Virus record (IMG/VR): IMGVR_UViG_3300027741_000150
Location: 1-35,652 of that record
Origin: a virus
DNA: 35,652 nucleotides
Strand: one strand, 5' to 3'
The notes below the pieces were generated by a model that saw only the letters and a list, made by a program, of their open reading frames with translations, searched no databases and was not told the origin of the DNA. Position 1 is the first letter of the stretch, and the number at the start of each line of letters is the position of its first letter. Positions 2,136-35,652 of the stretch are shown in pieces. The translations under genes and the position numbers were made by a program.

Positions 2136-2731
2136 GGGTGCTGGTGGCTTGCGAATATAGCGGGACCGTAAGGGACGCGTTCCGTGCAAAAGGGCACGAC
2201 GCATGGTCTTGCGACTTATTGCCGACCGACGCTGACCCTGCATGGCATTATGAGGGTGATATTTTTGATATCATTATGGATGATTGGGACCTGATGATAG
2301 CCCACCCGCCCTGCACCTATCTTTGCAATATGGGCGTTTGGTGGAATCATAAGCGGCCAGAGCGTTGGCCCTTGACTTATGAAGCCGCTGAATTTGTTCA
2401 ACGCCTGGCGGATGCGCCAATTGCCAAAATAGCCATCGAAAACCCAATAGGTTGGCTTAATAAGAATTGGCGCAAACCAAGCCAGATCATTCAGCCTTGG
2501 CAATATGGGCATGAAGCAAACAAACCAACTTGCCTATGGCTTAAAGATTTGCCTTTATTGGAGCCAACCAAAATTGTTGGAAAGGGCGAGTTTTACGTTA
2601 AGAAAAACGGCAACCGAATGAGCAAATGGTCACACATAACCAGCGGAACCAATAAAAACCGTTGGAAAATAGCCGCAACTACTTTTTCTGGTATCGCTAA
2701 CGCAATGGCGGACCAATGGGGAACCACATGA
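2132..2731 (+). CDS. Cytosine-C5-methyltransferase-like protein, short form
   Basis: A 199-residue protein with the order of motifs of C5 DNA methyltransferases. A SAM-binding start (VLVACEYSGTVRDAF, residues 3-17) is followed by SCDLLP (26-31), the motif IV PPC (59-61), the motif VI ENP (103-105) and a motif-VIII-like KPTCLWLKDLP (131-141). It is far shorter than bacterial Dcm-type enzymes (over 300 residues) and lacks an evident target-recognition domain. Activity and specificity are therefore uncertain, although stand-alone short forms are common in phages. It probably methylates phage or host DNA. It is coupled to the GcrA gene by ATGA. Confidence 0.75.
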   Translation: MRVLVACEYSGTVRDAFRAKGHDAWSCDLLPTDADPAWHYEGDIFDIIMDDWDLMIAHPPCTYLCNMGVWWNHKRPERWPLTYEAAEFVQRLADAPIAKIAIENPIGWLNKNWRKPSQIIQPWQYGHEANKPTCLWLKDLPLLEPTKIVGKGEFYVKKNGNRMSKWSHITSGTNKNRWKIAATTFSGIANAMADQWGTT

Positions 2732-3279
2732 CAGACGTTTTCTGGACGCAAGAACGCATCGACCAAATGGTTCAGCTATATTTAGATGGCAACAGCGCCA
2801 CCGAGATTGCCAGGATCATTGGTGCGCCTACTCGCAACATGATTTGCGGCAAAATTCACCGGATGAAACTGCGCGGCGTTATTGATATCGCCAAGCGGGT
2901 TTATAGACCCACCATCTCGGTACCCAAGATCAAATTATGGAAGGCACCTAAGGCCGAAGCTATCAAGCCCAAGCCTACTCTTAAAAAGGAGGTTGTTGCT
3001 ATGGTTGTTAACAATGAACCCCGCGGCCTGTTTGCCGCCACGCTAACAAGGATCAGACCCAATGGATGCAGATATATCGCCGAAGCCGTGTCCTATGGCG
3101 ATATGGATCAGGCCGTCATGTGCGGTGACACAAAAATCGAAGGGTCGTCTTATTGCGCTCACCACAAAAAACTTTGCTACAGCGACCTGACCCCGGCTGA
3201 ATACAAGCGCAAGAATCTATCGCTTAATCGCGGGGTTATGTGGAAGTTCAATCAAGGGCGAGCCACAAGGGCGGGTTAA
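2728..3279 (+). CDS. GcrA-family cell-cycle transcription regulator
   Basis: A 183-residue protein. Residues 5-48 (WTQERIDQMVQLYLDGNSA, then IIGAPTRNMICGKIHRM) match the GcrA N-terminal HTH. Residues about 112-151 (NGCRYIAEA, MCGDTKIEGSSYCAHH) match the C-terminal Cys/His-rich sigma70-interacting part. In Caulobacter GcrA binds sigma70-RNA polymerase and activates promoters carrying CcrM-methylated GANTC sites. A phage copy could redirect host transcription. The start at 2728 is preferred over 2716 because of the ATGA overlap and GGGGA six bases upstream. A C-terminal extension (about residues 152-183) is basic. The stop overlaps the convergent helicase stop. Confidence 0.88.
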   Translation: MTDVFWTQERIDQMVQLYLDGNSATEIARIIGAPTRNMICGKIHRMKLRGVIDIAKRVYRPTISVPKIKLWKAPKAEAIKPKPTLKKEVVAMVVNNEPRGLFAATLTRIRPNGCRYIAEAVSYGDMDQAVMCGDTKIEGSSYCAHHKKLCYSDLTPAEYKRKNLSLNRGVMWKFNQGRATRAG

Positions 3280-5976: not shown

Positions 5977-6164
5977 CCCGGTATATTGCTGATTACAAAA
6001 TTGTTTGTAATTTTGATTTACCAAAAAATAAAGATTTTAATGAAGTAATGTCAAATTATGTGCGTTTGGGAAATTGGGAACCTTTTGGTCCTCCCGTTAT
6101 AGTTTCTCACAACCGCCATTTATACCTTGCACAAGCATTGGTTATTTTTGAAGGAGACGATTAA
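5973..6164 (+). CDS. DUF1737-like small protein
   Basis: A 63-residue protein of the form Y-x-I-V, then a helix (FNEVMSNYVRLGNWEPFGPPVI), then a short loop and LAQALVIFEGDD. The pattern of a small alpha/beta unit with GW-x-x-x-G-x-P and QAL is that of DUF1737. Function unknown. It is noticeably AT-rich relative to both neighbours, overlaps the preceding gene by ATGA and touches the next start by one base (TAATG). Confidence 0.6.
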   Translation: MTRYIADYKIVCNFDLPKNKDFNEVMSNYVRLGNWEPFGPPVIVSHNRHLYLAQALVIFEGDD

Positions 6165-6901
6165 TGGCGTTTGATCTTAAAAGCATCAAGCGAAACGCGA
6201 CAATCGCCGCCCCTCGCGTCATGGTTTATGGTGTCGAGGGGATCGGCAAGACGACGTTTGCTTCTGGTGCGCCTGATCCGATCTTCATCCTCACCGAGGA
6301 TGGCCTAGGATCATTGGACATTGCCCATTTCCCTTTGGCATCTAATGCCGAGGACGTTATGGACGCAATCGCCACGCTATACAGCGAGGAACACGCTTTC
6401 CAGACGGTGGTAGTTGATAGCCTAGATTGGCTAGAGGCTATGATCCAGAAGGAAATCGAATCCAAGTATGACGCCAAAGACCTGGCCTATGGCAAAGGCG
6501 CTATCATTGCGGCGCAGAAGTGGCGTGATGTTCTGGATGGCCTGAATGCCTTGCGTAATGATAAGGGCATGACGGTTATTCTGCTGGCCCATACCGCTAT
6601 CAAGCGTTTCGATAGCCCAGAAGTCGAGCCATACGACCGCTACCAGCCTAAGCTACAGGAGCGTTCCAGTTCCGTTGTACGCGAATGGGCGGATGCCGTA
6701 CTGTTTGCCAACTACAAAACCATCGTTAAGAAAGACGATGTGGGATTCAACAAGACGAGCAACCGGGGAATTTCCACGGGCGAAAGATTGTTGTTTACGA
6801 GCGAGCGTCCAGCCTATATGGCCAAGAACCGCTACAGCCTGCCAGACACCATACCAATGATCTGGTCAGAATTTTCAAACTCCATCAAAAAGGGAAACTA
6901 A
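6164..6901 (+). CDS. Sak4-like RecA-fold ATPase (recombinase)
   Basis: A 245-residue single-domain RecA-like ATPase with Walker A GVEGIGKTT (23-31) and Walker B VVVDS (82-86), followed by a conserved HT and a basic C-terminal part. Family AAA_24 / Sak4: in phages these pair with an SSB to anneal or exchange single strands. The immediately downstream DUF669 protein is the expected SSB-like partner. Length is normal for the family. The product probably acts in phage DNA recombination and recombination-dependent replication. Confidence 0.85.
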   Translation: MAFDLKSIKRNATIAAPRVMVYGVEGIGKTTFASGAPDPIFILTEDGLGSLDIAHFPLASNAEDVMDAIATLYSEEHAFQTVVVDSLDWLEAMIQKEIESKYDAKDLAYGKGAIIAAQKWRDVLDGLNALRNDKGMTVILLAHTAIKRFDSPEVEPYDRYQPKLQERSSSVVREWADAVLFANYKTIVKKDDVGFNKTSNRGISTGERLLFTSERPAYMAKNRYSLPDTIPMIWSEFSNSIKKGN

Positions 6902-6904
6902 ATC

Positions 6905-7360
6905 ATGGCTAAGGTCCATTTCGATATCTCCACCTATGAAGCGCCAAAGAGCGATTACGATCCATTGCCCAAGGGCGAGTACATGGCAATGGTCACAGAA
7001 AGTCAGATGAAGGTAACCAAGGCAGGTACGGGCGAATATCTCGCTCTGACCATGCAGATCATCGAAGGCAAGTATGCCGATCGCAAGATTTGGGAAAACC
7101 TCAACTTGCATAACCCTAACGAGGTTGCCGAAAACATTGCCCGCGCAAACCTTAAGGCCGTTTCCGAGGCTTGCGGTTTTGCGGAACTCGATGACACCGA
7201 CCAGCTTAACGATATTCCGTTTATTTTGGTTCTGGACATTGACCGCAAGGACCCCACCAGAAACCGCGTGATGGGCTACAAGCGTGCAGGGTCTAGTGCG
7301 GCACCATCGTCGTTTGCACAGGCTTCAGCGACCGCCGCAAAGCCTTGGGAGCGCAAGTAA
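6905..7360 (+). CDS. DUF669 SSB-like protein
   Basis: A 151-residue protein. It starts with YEAPKSDYDPLPKGEYMAMV, followed by an OB-fold-like beta region (LALTMQIIEGKYADRKIWENLNL), a helical part and a low-complexity A/S-rich tail ending KPWERK. This is the DUF669 arrangement, a family placed next to phage recombinases and proposed to bind single-stranded DNA. It lacks the acidic SSB tail, unlike the nuclease encoded immediately downstream. The gene lies 3 bases after the Sak4 gene and abuts the nuclease start. Confidence 0.85.
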   Translation: MAKVHFDISTYEAPKSDYDPLPKGEYMAMVTESQMKVTKAGTGEYLALTMQIIEGKYADRKIWENLNLHNPNEVAENIARANLKAVSEACGFAELDDTDQLNDIPFILVLDIDRKDPTRNRVMGYKRAGSSAAPSSFAQASATAAKPWERK

Positions 7361-8374
7361 ATGAGCAAGCCCGATCAAGTGACGACCGCTACCCAAATCT
7401 TTGGTTGGTATGAAGCCAAAACCGAAGATTTCCGGGAACACCTTGGTGCGTCCTTGATCGGGCACAACTGCAACCGATATTTGTGGCTCAATTTCCGCTG
7501 GGCCGTTAAGCCGAAATTTGAGGGGCGTATCTTGCGCCTCTTTAATACCGGGCATCGAGAGGAGACCCGAATCCATGAGGAACTGCGCGGCATTGGCGTA
7601 GAGCTTCATGTGGAAGAAAACGGTAAACAGATAACTTGCAGAAATGACTCTGGTCATTTTGGCGGGTCTGTCGATGGCGTAGGAAAAGGTTTTGTCGAAA
7701 ATCCTAACGTCTGGGCCGTCCTCGAATGCAAAACCATGGGAGAAAAGGCGTTTACCAAGCTATCAGCCTGGTGCGTCGAGACTGAAAAGCCACAACATTT
7801 TGCACAGATGCAGGTCTATATGGGTCTGCTGAAGCTTGACGCGGCCATGTATATCGCGATCAACAAAAATACCGACGCGATCTACACGGAGTGGATCACC
7901 GCAGATAATGCGGTGTTTAAGCAATATAATCACCGCGCCAACACAATTGTTGAGGCTAAGACTGCACCACTAAGACTAAGCGATGATCCTACATATTGGG
8001 AATGTAAGTTCTGCGATATGTATCGGCTTTGCCACCATGCAGAGCCAGCGCAAGTCAATTGCCGTACCTGCGCCCATTCAACGCCCGTTGCCGACGGTAA
8101 ATGGCGCTGCGAATTGGCCGATACGTTTTTGACGGGCGCGGATCAGCGCAAGGGTTGCGACCAGCATCTATTGATTCCAGACTTTGTACATGGCGCGGAA
8201 CCGATAGATGCTGGCGTCAACTTCATTGAGTACAAAAACAAAGAAACTGGCGAGATCTTCACCCACGGCAAGAAAGTAACAGCGCCACGGGATAGCCTTG
8301 CCAAGCGCCAGGCCGAAGGCCGCAAGCGCGGCTCCAACAATGGCCTACCCTTCAACGATGAAATTCCTTTTTAG
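7361..8374 (+). CDS. PD-(D/E)XK nuclease with Fe-S cysteines and SSB-like tail
   Basis: A 337-residue RecB/Cas4-like nuclease. Catalytic elements are D105 (GGSVDGV), E122-x-K124 (LECK) and Q149/Q151 (AQMQVYMG). C37 with C215, C218 and C224 forms the C...CxxCx5C set typical of a 4Fe-4S cluster in AddB and Cas4. A second Cys group (C234, C237, C250, C266) may bind zinc. The C terminus ends NDEIPF, like the acidic SSB tip that recruits repair proteins. It probably resects DNA ends for the Sak4/DUF669 pair. The start is immediately after the DUF669 stop. Confidence 0.85.
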   Translation: MSKPDQVTTATQIFGWYEAKTEDFREHLGASLIGHNCNRYLWLNFRWAVKPKFEGRILRLFNTGHREETRIHEELRGIGVELHVEENGKQITCRNDSGHFGGSVDGVGKGFVENPNVWAVLECKTMGEKAFTKLSAWCVETEKPQHFAQMQVYMGLLKLDAAMYIAINKNTDAIYTEWITADNAVFKQYNHRANTIVEAKTAPLRLSDDPTYWECKFCDMYRLCHHAEPAQVNCRTCAHSTPVADGKWRCELADTFLTGADQRKGCDQHLLIPDFVHGAEPIDAGVNFIEYKNKETGEIFTHGKKVTAPRDSLAKRQAEGRKRGSNNGLPFNDEIPF

Positions 8375-17225: not shown

Positions 17226-17681
17226 TTACTTTTTACCCAAAAAATCGTTTTGAAGCGTGTACCGCGCTCTCATTTTATCAAAATCTACAGCATTTTGAAA
17301 TGCGCCTTTGGCAGTAGATGTTTCTGACCAATGAGGCGTATTTTCAGGTGCGTTATCTTTAGGAATGAATTTGCTAACTTGTGATCTAGTAGCAAATTCA
17401 AGTGGATTTTTTCCTATTTGATTTGTATCACCAATGGATGTTCTATTGTTTTCACCCATAATATTATTCAAAATATCATCTTTTTGTTTTGCGCCCATAT
17501 AGGACTGCAATACCTTAGCAATGGCCTCACCGCTCGACACGGGAGCTTGGATGCCCTTATAGGACTGGACCTGCATAGGCTCGGCACCAGCGTCTTGCAT
17601 AGCCTGAGCGCGAGCCATCCGGGCCTGTTCTTCGGGCGTAAGGGCAATGCCCGCAAGGTTGACGTTCTGGTTATACATCAT
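17226..17681 (-). CDS. Short paralogue of the ejection protein N terminus
   Basis: A 151-residue protein whose residues about 25-72 (AGAEPMQVQSYKGIQAPVS, then LQSYMGAKQKDDIL) align closely with the N-terminal module of the 562-residue protein encoded next. The remaining 80 residues are polar and unrelated. Similarity is visible in the DNA as well, so a tandem duplication with loss or exchange of the C-terminal part is likely. Start 17681 or 17678 (adjacent ATGs) overlaps the preceding gene by 8-11 bases, with GGAG upstream. The duplicated N terminus may be a docking element for the virion or portal. Confidence 0.65.
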   Translation of the reverse strand: MMYNQNVNLAGIALTPEEQARMARAQAMQDAGAEPMQVQSYKGIQAPVSSGEAIAKVLQSYMGAKQKDDILNNIMGENNRTSIGDTNQIGKNPLEFATRSQVSKFIPKDNAPENTPHWSETSTAKGAFQNAVDFDKMRARYTLQNDFLGKK

Positions 17682-18366
17682 AACGCTCCAGGTTCTTCAG
17701 CATGGGCATCAGAACAGACTTTAATGCACACATATTGGCGGCATACTTTTCGTAATACGCCGGATATGTTTCTTTCATCCAAGCAACACGGTCGGCAGAA
17801 TGTTCCACAAAGGCCGTGCAGTCGTAACAATCTAAACTAGTCTGTTCCATTTTGTAATGGTCTGGCAAAGACCCGCGTTGCGATTTTACAAAATCAAAAA
17901 CTTGCTTTTCGGTCCAGTTTTCGATGGGCTGAATAAACTCAATCCCGTCTATAACTGTACCATGCCTTGCTGGCGACTTATGGGGATCATCAATACGCTG
18001 ACCGCGTATCAATTGAGATACACCCAGTTCCTTAGCCGCCCGCATCAATGGCCGTGAAATGTTATCTGCACAACATTCCAGATAGCTTTGGACCTTTACG
18101 GGTTTATCACCAGAAATAACATGCCCCAGACCAGTCCAATCAATAGGAACAACATCAGAAGGGATTCCATTGGCTTCAATATAACCCTGTTGATCGGTAT
18201 TAATTTCTACAAACTTGTTAGTTTCGCGCCTAATTTCGTCAATTAACGCAAGGGCCTCTGGATAACATTTCCCGGCATTAACCCATATGACGACAGGGTT
18301 TTGGTTGCGGTACAAGTACCAACAAGCCAAAGAATCTTTGCCGCCTGAGAAAGCTAATGCCAGCAT
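17671..18366 (-). CDS. PAPS reductase / PP-loop ATP pyrophosphatase family protein
   Basis: A 231-residue enzyme with the PP-loop SGGKDS at residues 7-12. The adenine nucleotide alpha-hydrolase fold continues through VIWVNAGKCYPEAL, and there are later cysteines (YLECC, LDCYDC) of the kind seen in PAPS/APS reductase-like and DndC/TtuA-like members. The substrate is not identifiable. Candidates are sulphate assimilation in the host, thiolation of tRNA or DNA, or another adenylation reaction. The gene lies among ejection-protein genes, sharing its start with the upstream stop (TAATG), so it is expressed late as part of the structural operon. Confidence 0.8.
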   Translation of the reverse strand: MLALAFSGGKDSLACWYLYRNQNPVVIWVNAGKCYPEALALIDEIRRETNKFVEINTDQQGYIEANGIPSDVVPIDWTGLGHVISGDKPVKVQSYLECCADNISRPLMRAAKELGVSQLIRGQRIDDPHKSPARHGTVIDGIEFIQPIENWTEKQVFDFVKSQRGSLPDHYKMEQTSLDCYDCTAFVEHSADRVAWMKETYPAYYEKYAANMCALKSVLMPMLKNLERYDV

Positions 18367-22755: not shown

Positions 22756-23112
22756 TTACGCTCCGATAAGGGAGACCCAGGTTGTATCGCTGGTTCCCCA
22801 GAAAATGCGACGCTTAGTGGCCGCAATAGCAACAGATGCCGCACCGTCAATGGTTGATCCGGTGGGCGGATAAACTGTCAAAATGTTAGCGCCATCATTA
22901 GCAACAACCATGCAAGCGCCATTTTCAGTCTTAAGCAACTTAACGCCACTAGATGAGGCGGTAGTGCCAACGACGTTATAAGAAACAGCAAGCTGAAGCG
23001 CGGTAGCGGCAGTGGTGCCAGTGGCCGTAAGGCCAGTAGAAGCCGTTCCGCAAATGGATTGCGTGGCAAGGGGGGACGTACCTGAACCCAAGACGCGAGA
23101 AGGAATAGTCAT
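22756..23112 (-). CDS. Small beta-rich structural protein, possible decoration protein
   Basis: A 118-residue A/T/S/G-rich protein (TASTGLTATGTTAATALQLAVS, then GVKLLKTENGACMVVANDGANILTVYPPTG). It is typical of small capsid-associated beta proteins encoded after the major capsid protein. AAGGGG lies nine bases upstream of ATG, just after a strong hairpin that could reduce its expression relative to the capsid genes. A decoration or head-tail joining role is inferred from position. Confidence 0.55.
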   Translation of the reverse strand: MTIPSRVLGSGTSPLATQSICGTASTGLTATGTTAATALQLAVSYNVVGTTASSSGVKLLKTENGACMVVANDGANILTVYPPTGSTIDGAASVAIAATKRRIFWGTSDTTWVSLIGA

Positions 23113-23136
23113 GTTAAACCCCTTTCCGAGGGAGAT

Positions 23137-23171
23137 AAGAAACGGGGGGCAACCCCTAAAGACCGCCCCCC
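23137..23171 (-). terminator. Hairpin with T-rich tail after the capsid genes (minus strand)
   Basis: On the minus strand the sequence forms GGGGGGC (23171-23165), a 14-base loop, GCCCCCC (23150-23144), then GTTTCTTATC. A 7-bp all-GC stem followed by a T-rich run is terminator-like, though the T run is imperfect. It lies after the major capsid and 88-residue genes and before the next head gene, where phages often place a partial terminator to raise capsid messages relative to later genes. Confidence 0.45.
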
Positions 23172-23179
23172 ATTAATTA

Positions 23180-23446
23180 TTACAAGGGCGATGTGGTCTT
23201 ATAGACCCAACCGTATTCGCCCGTAGCAAAGGCCGTAGCGGCGGTATAGCTACCAGCCGTGTCGGTTACGTTAAAGGACGAGTCAACCGAACAGGTGCCA
23301 GTGGCAACCGCTTCCGTAGCCTTAACGTAGACCCAAGTGTCGTTTAGGTTGCCCAACATAGGCGTACCAACAGCAAAAGCAGGGGTGGTGTTGCGGTCGG
23401 TAAATGTAACGCCAATGCTAGGAGTTGCAGCAAAAGTACTAGCCAT
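23180..23446 (-). CDS. Small structural protein after the capsid gene
   Basis: An 88-residue beta-rich protein (MASTFAATPSIGVTFTDRNTTP, then LNDTWVYVKATEAVATGTCSVDS), of the size and composition of capsid decoration or cement proteins. GGGAG lies eight bases upstream. It sits between the major capsid gene (17-base gap) and a terminator-like hairpin, so it should be expressed at capsid level. No named family. Confidence 0.6.
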   Translation of the reverse strand: MASTFAATPSIGVTFTDRNTTPAFAVGTPMLGNLNDTWVYVKATEAVATGTCSVDSSFNVTDTAGSYTAATAFATGEYGWVYKTTSPL

Positions 23447-34078: not shown

Positions 34079-34133
34079 GGTATGCTGGGGCAGGGTCTAT
34101 ATACTCATGGAAACAAGCGGCCTCACACGCTCA

Positions 34134-34159
34134 CTCAAGGGTACTACGTACCCCTTGAG
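34134..34159. other. Near-perfect inverted repeat next to the iterons
   Basis: CTCAAGGGTAC (34134-34144) pairs with GTACCCCTTGAG (34148-34159) with one bulged C and a 3-base loop, eleven pairs in all. It directly abuts the 17-bp inverted repeat and the CGCTCAC array. On either strand it could be a cruciform or protein-binding site. It lacks a terminator T-run. Confidence 0.55.
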
Positions 34160-34220
34160 CGTAAGTGAGTATTGGGCAAATGCGCTCACATACGCTCACT
34201 TACATACTCACTTACGCTCA
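34156..34220. repeat. 17-bp perfect inverted repeat across the iteron array
   Basis: The reverse complement of 34156-34172 equals 34204-34220 (ATACTCACTTACGCTCA). The arms are separated by 31 bases that contain part of the CGCTCAC repeat array. Such an arrangement can form a large cruciform or bind a protein on both strands. The 5' arm directly follows another strong hairpin. Confidence 0.7.
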
Positions 34221-34234
34221 CTTACGCTCACATA
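34183..34234 (+). repeat. Iteron-like 10-bp tandem array (CGCTCACWTA)
   Basis: Units CGCTCACATA (34183), CGCTCACTTA (34193), a degenerate TACTCACTTA (34205, after a 2-base insertion), CGCTCACTTA (34215) and CGCTCACATA (34225). The heptamer CGCTCAC also occurs at 33930, 34128 and 34268, making seven plus-strand copies in 345 bases. Iterons are typical binding sites for origin initiators or regulators. The RepA-type helicase gene at 3276-5186 is a possible partner, though a separate initiator was not identified. Confidence 0.7.
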
Positions 34235-34380
34235 GCCTTATTTAATAAACCATGCGGCGAATGGCGACGCTCACTATGATCGTGGGTTGAGAGGCAAATC
34301 ATGATGTTTTTCGCGGCCATTTTTGCGTGAGAAACGCTAAAGAAACTGACAACCCTCTCATATTTTTTGCCATTATAAAA

Positions 34381-34394: not shown

Positions 34395-34427
34395 AAATTT
34401 ATTTTCATCTGACCATGCATTTTGTTG

Positions 34428-34489: not shown

Positions 34490-34759
34490 ATGTCATATAT
34501 GATCCAGTTTCCAGATTTTGACGATCACGCAACCCCCGCTCAATTGCTAGCTTTAGGCTTTGCAGATGCATCTTGGCATAACGATACATGCCCTAGCTTT
34601 GATCGTGACGGCTTGATCGTGTTTGTCGATTACCTAGACACCGAATTGTCCGAATTCAAAGGCAAACGCTTTAACGTCATCCAAGACGCGCCAAACGGCC
34701 AAACCATCGATCACGGTAGCTATGACAGTCTGTCAGACGTTCTTGCAGCAATCGCCTAG
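34490..34759 (+). CDS. First early gene, hypothetical 89-residue protein
   Basis: Begins MSYMIQFPDFDDHATPAQLLALGFADASWHND. It is acidic, with an ending rich in D/S (DHGSYDSLSDVLAAIA). The start at 34490 is chosen because it lies after the predicted promoter and has GAGG eight bases upstream; an earlier ATG at 34415 would precede the -35 element. No family is recognised. Its stop codon lies inside the left outer stem of the structured element that follows. Confidence 0.65.
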   Translation: MSYMIQFPDFDDHATPAQLLALGFADASWHNDTCPSFDRDGLIVFVDYLDTELSEFKGKRFNVIQDAPNGQTIDHGSYDSLSDVLAAIA

Positions 34760-34805
34760 CATCTAACCGAAGGCCTCTAACAGGAGGCTTTCCATTAGAC
34801 CCTAG
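34756..34805 (+). ncRNA. Structured intergenic element, copy 1
   Basis: A nested hairpin overlapping the stop codon of the preceding gene. The outer stem is CTAG (34756-34759) with CTAG (34802-34805). A 2x2 internal loop (CA against CC) leads to TCTAA (34762-34766) paired with TTAGA (34795-34799). A second 2x2 loop (CC against CA) leads to a 9-bp stem with one G-T wobble at its fourth pair (34769-34777 with 34784-34792) and a 6-base loop. Copy 2 at 35111 has the same plan with different stem bases. There is no T-run, so it is not an ordinary terminator. Possible roles are RNA processing, translation control or protein binding. Confidence 0.6.
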
Positions 34806-34834
34806 CAAACCAAAACCCAAACCGGAGAAACACA

Positions 34835-35107
34835 ATGATCAATCTATCGGCACAATTAATGACGCCATTTCTTAATAATAACGGAACTGCCCGTTGCGAT
34901 TTAGTCGCAAGCCGTCTTGAAGCGAAAGAGGCAATTTACGCTGCAATGAAAGCGCTTCAAGAAATTCGCCCTAATAGCCGCGATTATATTGGGAAGGAAG
35001 CCATATTTGATTTGGATGTTTCCATATATTCCGCTCGTTTTTCGGCATTAGATGCAATCCGTAATGCGCTTTACGATGAGGCAATAATTATAAATGATTG
35101 CCAATAG
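34835..35107 (+). CDS. Hypothetical 90-residue early protein
   Basis: Begins MINLSAQLMTPFLNNNGTARCDLVASRLEAKEAIYAAMKALQEI and is largely helical with an alternating hydrophobic pattern. GGAGA lies seven bases upstream. It sits between two copies of the structured intergenic element, so its message would be flanked by two similar hairpins. No family is recognised. Confidence 0.6.
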   Translation: MINLSAQLMTPFLNNNGTARCDLVASRLEAKEAIYAAMKALQEIRPNSRDYIGKEAIFDLDVSIYSARFSALDAIRNALYDEAIIINDCQ

Positions 35108-35110
35108 CGC

Positions 35111-35164
35111 CTAGCTTCTAACCATGGGCCAAGCCTCAAAGCTTGGCTCATCATTAGACCCTAG
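35111..35164 (+). ncRNA. Structured intergenic element, copy 2
   Basis: Same architecture as copy 1, starting 3 bases after a stop codon. CTAG (35111-35114) pairs with CTAG (35161-35164), a 2x2 loop follows, and TCTAA (35117-35121) pairs with TTAGA (35154-35158). After a second 2x2 loop, an 11-bp stem (35124-35134 with 35141-35151) carries the same fourth-pair G-T wobble, followed by G-C, C-G, C-G, and closes a 6-base loop. The three basal pairs differ from copy 1 but remain paired, which is compensatory change. A separate simple hairpin, GCTTGC with GCAAGC (35170-35187), follows. Confidence 0.6.
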
Positions 35165-35231: not shown

Positions 35232-35333
35232 ATGAGCCCCCAAGACCTAGAAACAGCCAAGGGCCTGGCCCTAGTGGCAATGGCAACCATCGTCTTAGGA
35301 TTAACCTTGGCCCTGCCCTGGATCATATTCTAA
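35232..35333 (+). CDS. 33-residue membrane microprotein
   Basis: A short frame with AGGA nine bases before ATG 35232. The product starts MSPQDLETAKGLALVAMATI and is hydrophobic from about residue 11 to its end at F33, so it is probably a single-pass membrane peptide with an outside or inside N terminus that cannot be decided. It lies in the early operon between a structured element and the next small gene. Function unknown. Confidence 0.5.
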   Translation: MSPQDLETAKGLALVAMATIVLGLTLALPWIIF

Positions 35334-35563: not shown

Positions 35564-35652
35564 ACCGTGACGCAATCCTTAACCACGCCAAGCGTCTAAT
35601 CAACGGCCCCCGCGCCAATGAATACGGCGACGCCGAATTGAATTTTACCCAT
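35560..35652 (+). CDS. DUF6378-like protein, N-terminal part (crosses the circular junction)
   Basis: This is the 5' part of the same 95-residue gene listed at 1-212. ATG 35560 overlaps the previous stop (ATGA), and the frame (MNRDAILNHAKRLINGPRAN, then EYGDAELNF) runs to the last base without a stop. It then continues as IAQGWQII after base 17 of the window. The N-terminal D-x-I-L-x-x-A and E-Y-G-D segments match the start of DUF6378 proteins, which supports joining the two parts. Confidence 0.8.
   Translation, partial: MNRDAILNHAKRLINGPRANEYGDAELNFTH
35636..35652. repeat. Terminal direct repeat, right copy
   Basis: Identical to bases 1-17. Together with the gene that crosses the ends it shows that the window closes into a circle at this overlap. 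Confidence 0.85.

Follow-up and report, generated by a model that had tools for sequence, protein, structure and literature searches.

What is the role of an elaborate hairpin that recurs at the ends of early genes in a phage? The question arises from the window, i.e. the whole stretch of DNA that was analysed, a virus record of 35,652 bases, in which two such elements stand among the first early genes, downstream of a non-coding stretch and on the strand opposite to the terminase. A sequence-only reading had proposed an RNase processing site, a protein-binding RNA element or a translation switch for them.

The ends of the genome are identical over 17 bases (AATTGAATTTTACCCAT, positions 1-17 and 35636-35652), so it is circular or terminally redundant. 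It encodes a terminase, a portal, a primase/helicase, a Sak4-like AAA_24 protein, a DUF669 protein and a homologue of the cell-cycle regulator GcrA (2716-3279, PF07750, E 6e-21), the last of which suggests, as judged from sequence, an alphaproteobacterial host. For the portal, uncultured relatives are numerous and the cultured ones all distant; the terminase comes closest to those of Pelagibacter and Rhodoferax podophages (about 42% identity), and no phage isolate related by DNA to the window genome was found. In the non-coding stretch ahead of the early genes, about five 10-bp CGCTCACTTA repeats (34108-34245) form an array that also holds a perfect 17-nt inverted repeat (TGAGCGTAAGTGAGTAT, 34156-34172/34204-34220) and that looks like iterons or regulator sites.

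Two nested hairpins in the early region

The features of the locus, all on the plus strand, are as follows.

34490-34759, plus strand: upstream early gene, 89 aa from the ATG at 34490, no family
34757-34759, plus strand: UAG stop of this gene, within the basal stem of copy 1
34756-34805, plus strand: element copy 1 (class I), from folding and sequence inspection
34756-34759/34802-34805, plus strand: CTAG outer stem of copy 1
34762-34766/34795-34799, plus strand: middle stem of copy 1, TCTAA with TTAGA
34769 onwards, plus strand: upper stem of copy 1; the 2x2 loops of this copy are CA/CC and CC/CA
34806-34834, plus strand: A/C-rich, U-free leader, with a ribosome-binding-like GGAGA ahead of the ATG at 34835
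34835-35107, plus strand: 90-aa early gene between copy 1 and copy 2, no family
35105-35107, plus strand: UAG stop of the 90-aa gene, 3 bases 5' of copy 2
35111-35164, plus strand: element copy 2 (class I), on the plan of copy 1, with an 11-bp upper stem and a hexaloop
35165-35231, plus strand: 67-nt leader after copy 2, common to contig L006 and partly to L003b
35232 (ATG) to 35331-35333 (stop), plus strand: 33-aa ORF after the copy-2 leader

An alternative longer frame of the gene before copy 1 would give 114 aa from position 34415.

Sequence and folding confirmed both elements at these positions, with the nested plan that had been read from the letters. Copy 1 runs CTAG CA TCTAA CC, then the upper stem GAAGGCCTC/GAGGCTTTC, then CA TTAGA CC CTAG; copy 2 runs CTAG CT TCTAA CC, ATGGGCCAAGC/GCTTGGCTCAT and CA TTAGA CC CTAG. 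The nested fold reaches -24.1 kcal/mol in copy 1 (z = -5.9) and -27.1 kcal/mol in copy 2 (z = -5.6), both z-scores lying below -5.5, and none of 200 dinucleotide shuffles folds as stably as either copy. In parallel, the pattern TCTAACC-N15..40-TTAGA is seen twice in the window genome for 0.06 occurrences expected. Two details of the sequence-only reading had to be revised. The hexaloop that it gave to both copies holds for copy 2 but not for copy 1, which folds as a tetraloop closed by a U-G pair, and the wobble that it placed at pair four as a shared feature was dropped, since G-U occurs there in just four of 11 class I copies.

A family of hairpins in uncultured phages

A covariance-model search of related phage genomes, which had been proposed along with the two elements, and pattern scans yielded further copies. 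Twenty-five are tabulated from about 16 virus contigs, in two main sequence classes and diverged forms, and one of them sits in a seemingly unrelated phage. This RNA hairpin, not catalogued before, stands between early genes in a group of uncultured phages. In all copies, it spans two turns; the lower arms are conserved and interrupted by small internal loops, and the upper stem varies in sequence yet stays paired.

Further class I copies came from exact-pattern scans of IMG/VR, in L001 (two copies), L002, L003, L004, L005, L006 and L007. Another one was found in L038, a contig without a portal gene, where the outer stem is GGTTAA/TTAACC and the loops CA/CC and CC/CA are kept. Class II was found by covariance model and broader patterns; its consensus is CTAG-CW-TCTATAGGA-C-stem-T-TCC-CA-TTAGA-CC-CTAG and its carriers are L003, L004, L005, L249 and L250, with related forms in L002, L185, L186, L248, L166 and L238. 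Folding of every stop-codon region of whole relatives brought up elements with a TAGG/CCTA base, of which G016 has three and G017 two. The presence of three elements in G016 weakened the idea that they come in pairs around a single gene.

With the class II model, every class I copy is recovered on the sense strand at E 6e-11 to 5e-6, and the opposite strand scores lower; on this ground, class I and class II were treated as one family. The E-values are rough, the sequences are metagenomic and the copies are related. The L038 copy is picked up weakly by the class II model, on the sense strand, and scores 41.4 bits (E 1.7e-10) with a covariance model built without it. As L038 was first found via a sequence pattern, it is independent evidence only in that its outer and upper stems pair.

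Most portal relatives gave no match, so the family is either limited to part of the group or diverged beyond the models; several contigs are short, and a missing second copy there means little. That the element belongs to no described family was borne out by the Rfam 15 covariance models, none of which matched it at gathering or relaxed thresholds. A weak Rfam match, CC0196, covers the apical stem only, by chance. Among 84,980 prokaryote genomes scanned, two matches appeared, both lacking the upper stem and judged to be chance, and the many chance sites of the pattern scans were excluded by demanding an upper stem. Candidates in L019/L023 (a perfect palindrome that has no internal loop) and in L058 were judged to be something other than this element. 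Caulobacter phage GB2A, Rhodoferax P26218, Pelagibacter HTVC204P and T7 gave no element match. Finally, in an open search for hairpins with 2x2 loops, the commonest loop was CC/CA, nearly all instances coming from the known copies.

Conserved and covarying parts

The sequence-only reading had concluded from two copies that structure rather than sequence is conserved. Two copies alone were insufficient for this, and it is the wider set that establishes covariation, for the upper stem. In class I, the upper stem has 26 double-changed cells where shuffles give 9.4 +/- 2.3, pairing holds in 98.8% of cells and all seven modelled pairs show both-side changes. The covariation score is 0.414 (0.137 in shuffles) and the signal is lost when the alignment slides by one column. 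Class II follows the same pattern at a weaker level, with seven double-changed cells against 1.4. In correctly framed upper stems, G-U outnumbers A-C by 18 to 1 (counted by eye among related copies), as expected if the sense RNA folds.

In the lower part, by contrast, conservation extends to the primary sequence, internal-loop bases included. The lower stem shows no variation among the 10 close class I copies, so its pairing is supported only by L038 and by G016 and G017 with their TAGG/CCTA forms. The 5' arm measures 22-25 nt in 24 of the 25 copies, though loops and stems vary, which is about two turns of RNA helix.

Placement at stop codons

The elements had been described as starting at or near a stop codon. 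This is the case for both, since the CTAG of copy 1 contains the UAG and copy 2 begins three bases past a TAG. Across the family, the UAG of the basal stem (CTAG or equivalent) is the exact stop of the upstream gene in 22 of 25 copies, for a baseline of 26% UAG among the stops of four of these genomes, the copies being related rather than independent. Every copy (25/25) lies on the sense strand of its flanking genes, and the next ATG follows 14-67 nt downstream. The leaders after the element are rich in A (44%) and C (35%) and poor in G (12%) and T (8%).

The class I upper stem begins 12 nt after the U of UAG. Judging by ribosome footprints, this is roughly where a terminating ribosome would have its front edge, and the lower arms would then open during termination and close afterwards. 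With a stop codon in the stem base, coupling to translation termination is possible, although the translation switch put forward by the sequence-only reading found no direct support. Stop-codon readthrough was rejected: in the copies with the stop in the stem, the in-frame extensions range from 2 to 33 codons, so the product is not conserved.

Mosaic junctions

Contigs that share the gene on one side of an element mostly carry an unrelated gene on the other, and homology between contigs stops at or within the element. Twelve copy pairs have one flank at least 70% identical, and most of them lose the homology of the other flank at the element. For instance, L002a and L185a are 96% identical downstream, where gene and leader are shared, and have no upstream homology and different upper stems. 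In L004b and L005b, the upstream side is 93% identical, with the same 260-aa GP88-family gene, and the downstream genes differ with no homology left. L249 and L250 drop from 78% upstream to 27% downstream, and L002a/L003a, L002b/L003b and G016b/G017a behave in the same way. Protein comparison agrees, as related genes ending in PWNF precede three different downstream genes in L249, L250 and L001a, and a 195-aa gene stands after three different genes. In L006 and the window genome, the leader after copy 2 is common and the upstream gene is different. The exceptions are L002b/L185b, conserved on both flanks, and L004a/L005a, partly so.

The 195-aa gene sits between two elements in L002, L003 and L185. 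Its protein (L304, 7014-7598) has weak similarity to the DNA polymerase III beta clamp, and relatives 38% identical occur in Caulobacter phages.

Boundary sequences were proposed long ago for phage mosaicism, and they are not identifiable at most junctions (PMC3029335). The element resembles them as a short conserved sequence where the homology of modules ends, and differs in being a conserved RNA structure in its own right. Plausibly, its arms double as homology for early-gene exchange. A further step, which we offer tentatively as somewhat doubtful, is that this early-mRNA hairpin doubles as a dedicated junction of early-gene cassettes, i.e. a boundary sequence maintained by its RNA role in an integron-like arrangement without integrase. 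Each cassette would then end in a hairpin with its own stop, and any genes could be joined with reading and processing undisturbed.

Possible functions of the element

Of the roles proposed from the letters, an RNase processing or protein-binding RNA element is plausible and is the reading preferred here. A more specific form of it may well be right and is put forward tentatively, by analogy: a hairpin between cistrons at which the mRNA is processed or its 3' end protected, in the manner of the RNase III sites of T7. The hairpin would lie in a polycistronic early mRNA with the upstream cistron ending within its base, and the full two-turn structure would form once ribosomes have terminated and left. 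A double-strand-specific RNase, most likely host RNase III, might recognise it, or it might block 3' exonucleases. The upstream message would acquire a defined and protected 3' end, and the downstream cistron would be freed with an unstructured leader. Recurring between unrelated early genes, the conserved arms could also provide common recombination homology, which would explain why the neighbours switch at precisely this point.

For comparison, the T7 early sites R0.3, R0.5, R1, R1.1 and R1.3 were folded at the positions that we take to be theirs. As in T7, the elements occur in multiple copies between early genes, have a similar size and no U-run, and combine conserved lower arms and an internal loop with an apical stem that is variable yet paired. 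Nevertheless, R1.1 has an asymmetric 4/5 loop whereas the element has symmetric 2x2 loops at two levels, T7 sites lack the stop codon while a UAG lies in the base here, and the element models R1, R2 and R3 found no sequence or model match in T7. Position, multiplicity, missing U-run, constant helix length and the pattern of arms and stem match the T7 sites and thereby favour processing or protection. Cleavage at R1.1 drives maturation and protection of T7 mRNA (PMC8708148), R1.1 is also a substrate of an alphaproteobacterial RNase III, that of S. meliloti (PMC6121014), and hairpins are able to halt 3' exonucleases and to determine where an mRNA ends (PMC11925234). Conserved loop and lower-stem bases exceed the known needs of RNase III, which suggests a more specific partner.

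Such a partner leads to a rather unlikely alternative, in which the element is primarily the target of a specific RNA-binding protein, encoded by phage or host, that would control early cistrons through their decay, antitermination or translation and would read the stem UCUAA/UUAGA together with the loops CA/CC and CC/CA. Strict loop-base conservation leaves room for it: apart from one loop position, all 10 close class I copies have identical loop and lower-stem bases, the loop bases are kept in L038, the upper loop CC/CA persists in G016c and G017b next to different stems, and copies with a CA first loop read 5'-CA-UNNNA-CC on both strands of the middle module. However, the upper internal loop of class II is altered to UA/CAU-like forms and the recognising protein is hypothetical. 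It is also not very probable that the arms are retained mainly for cassette recombination, by Sak4-type annealing of the phage or by the host, with the RNA fold secondary. The one-flank loss of homology and the AAA_24 (Sak4-like), DUF669 and PD-(D/E)XK-like proteins of the window genome speak for it, but on its own it leaves unexplained the upper-stem covariation, the G-U preference, the constant arm length, the fixed orientation and the in-register stop codon; moreover, an equally mosaic picture would arise if hypervariable early genes lay between fixed regulatory sites of any kind.

It is improbable that the element ends or pauses transcription between early genes, whether as an intrinsic or as a Rho-dependent site. 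A stable hairpin past a stop codon would suit such a role, the C-rich, G-poor leader could suit Rho, and a hairpin at an operon junction can fix the 3' end once Rho has terminated transcription (PMC11925234). Against this, the next gene in the same direction starts within 14-67 nt, the longest T-run within 12 nt past any of the 25 copies is 2 and a terminator scan gave no terminator-like site at the elements; no copy is an intrinsic terminator, as the sequence-only reading had argued. Least expected of all is a site acting at the DNA level, such as a repressor operator, a cruciform or a single-strand recombination site of the attC kind. The palindrome, the cassette-like arrangement and RYYYAAC/GTTRRRY-like boxes in a few copies recall attC, an imperfect inverted repeat with a variable centre at the stop codon of exchangeable genes. 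The core box of attC is GTTRRRY, with the G at the exchange point. In class I, an A replaces this G (ATTAGAC), GTTAGAC being present in a few class II copies, so most copies lack the core box. The single orientation and the tolerance of G-U but not A-C favour folding of the sense RNA, and no tyrosine recombinase or integron-type integrase was found in a Pfam scan of 20 of the main ORFs. The SAS and ESAS of cluster K mycobacteriophages are likewise intergenic repeats, near gene starts and of unknown function (PMC3203893). The SAS is a 13-bp asymmetric repeat (GGGATAGGAGCCC) that adjoins a start codon and travels with its gene family, and the ESAS contains an inverted repeat with a variable spacer (PMC3203893). 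The element, in contrast, is linked to stop codons and independent of either neighbouring gene, and GGGATAGGAGCCC is absent from the element leaders listed.

If the elements are processing or protection hairpins, the analogy suggests that T7-like processing of early messages arose in a phage group that these elements do not tie to T7. The family and its working models R2 and R3 can be used to annotate early operons of uncultured phages, and a defined structured element at the junctions makes the boundary-sequence idea testable.

Other features of the genome

A row of genes at 6164-8374, comprising the Sak4-like AAA_24 ATPase, DUF669 and a weak PD-(D/E)XK match, is likely a phage recombination module, and L038 carries ORFs that by eye resemble it in type. 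A PAPS reductase-family gene (PF01507) is found among the structural genes (17671-18366). On the minus strand, a separate strong hairpin directly follows a late-region stop codon at about 23110-23180. It has a 15-bp stem with a TT/TC 2x2 internal loop and a similar copy in L149, and is possibly a late-region terminator or another processing site.
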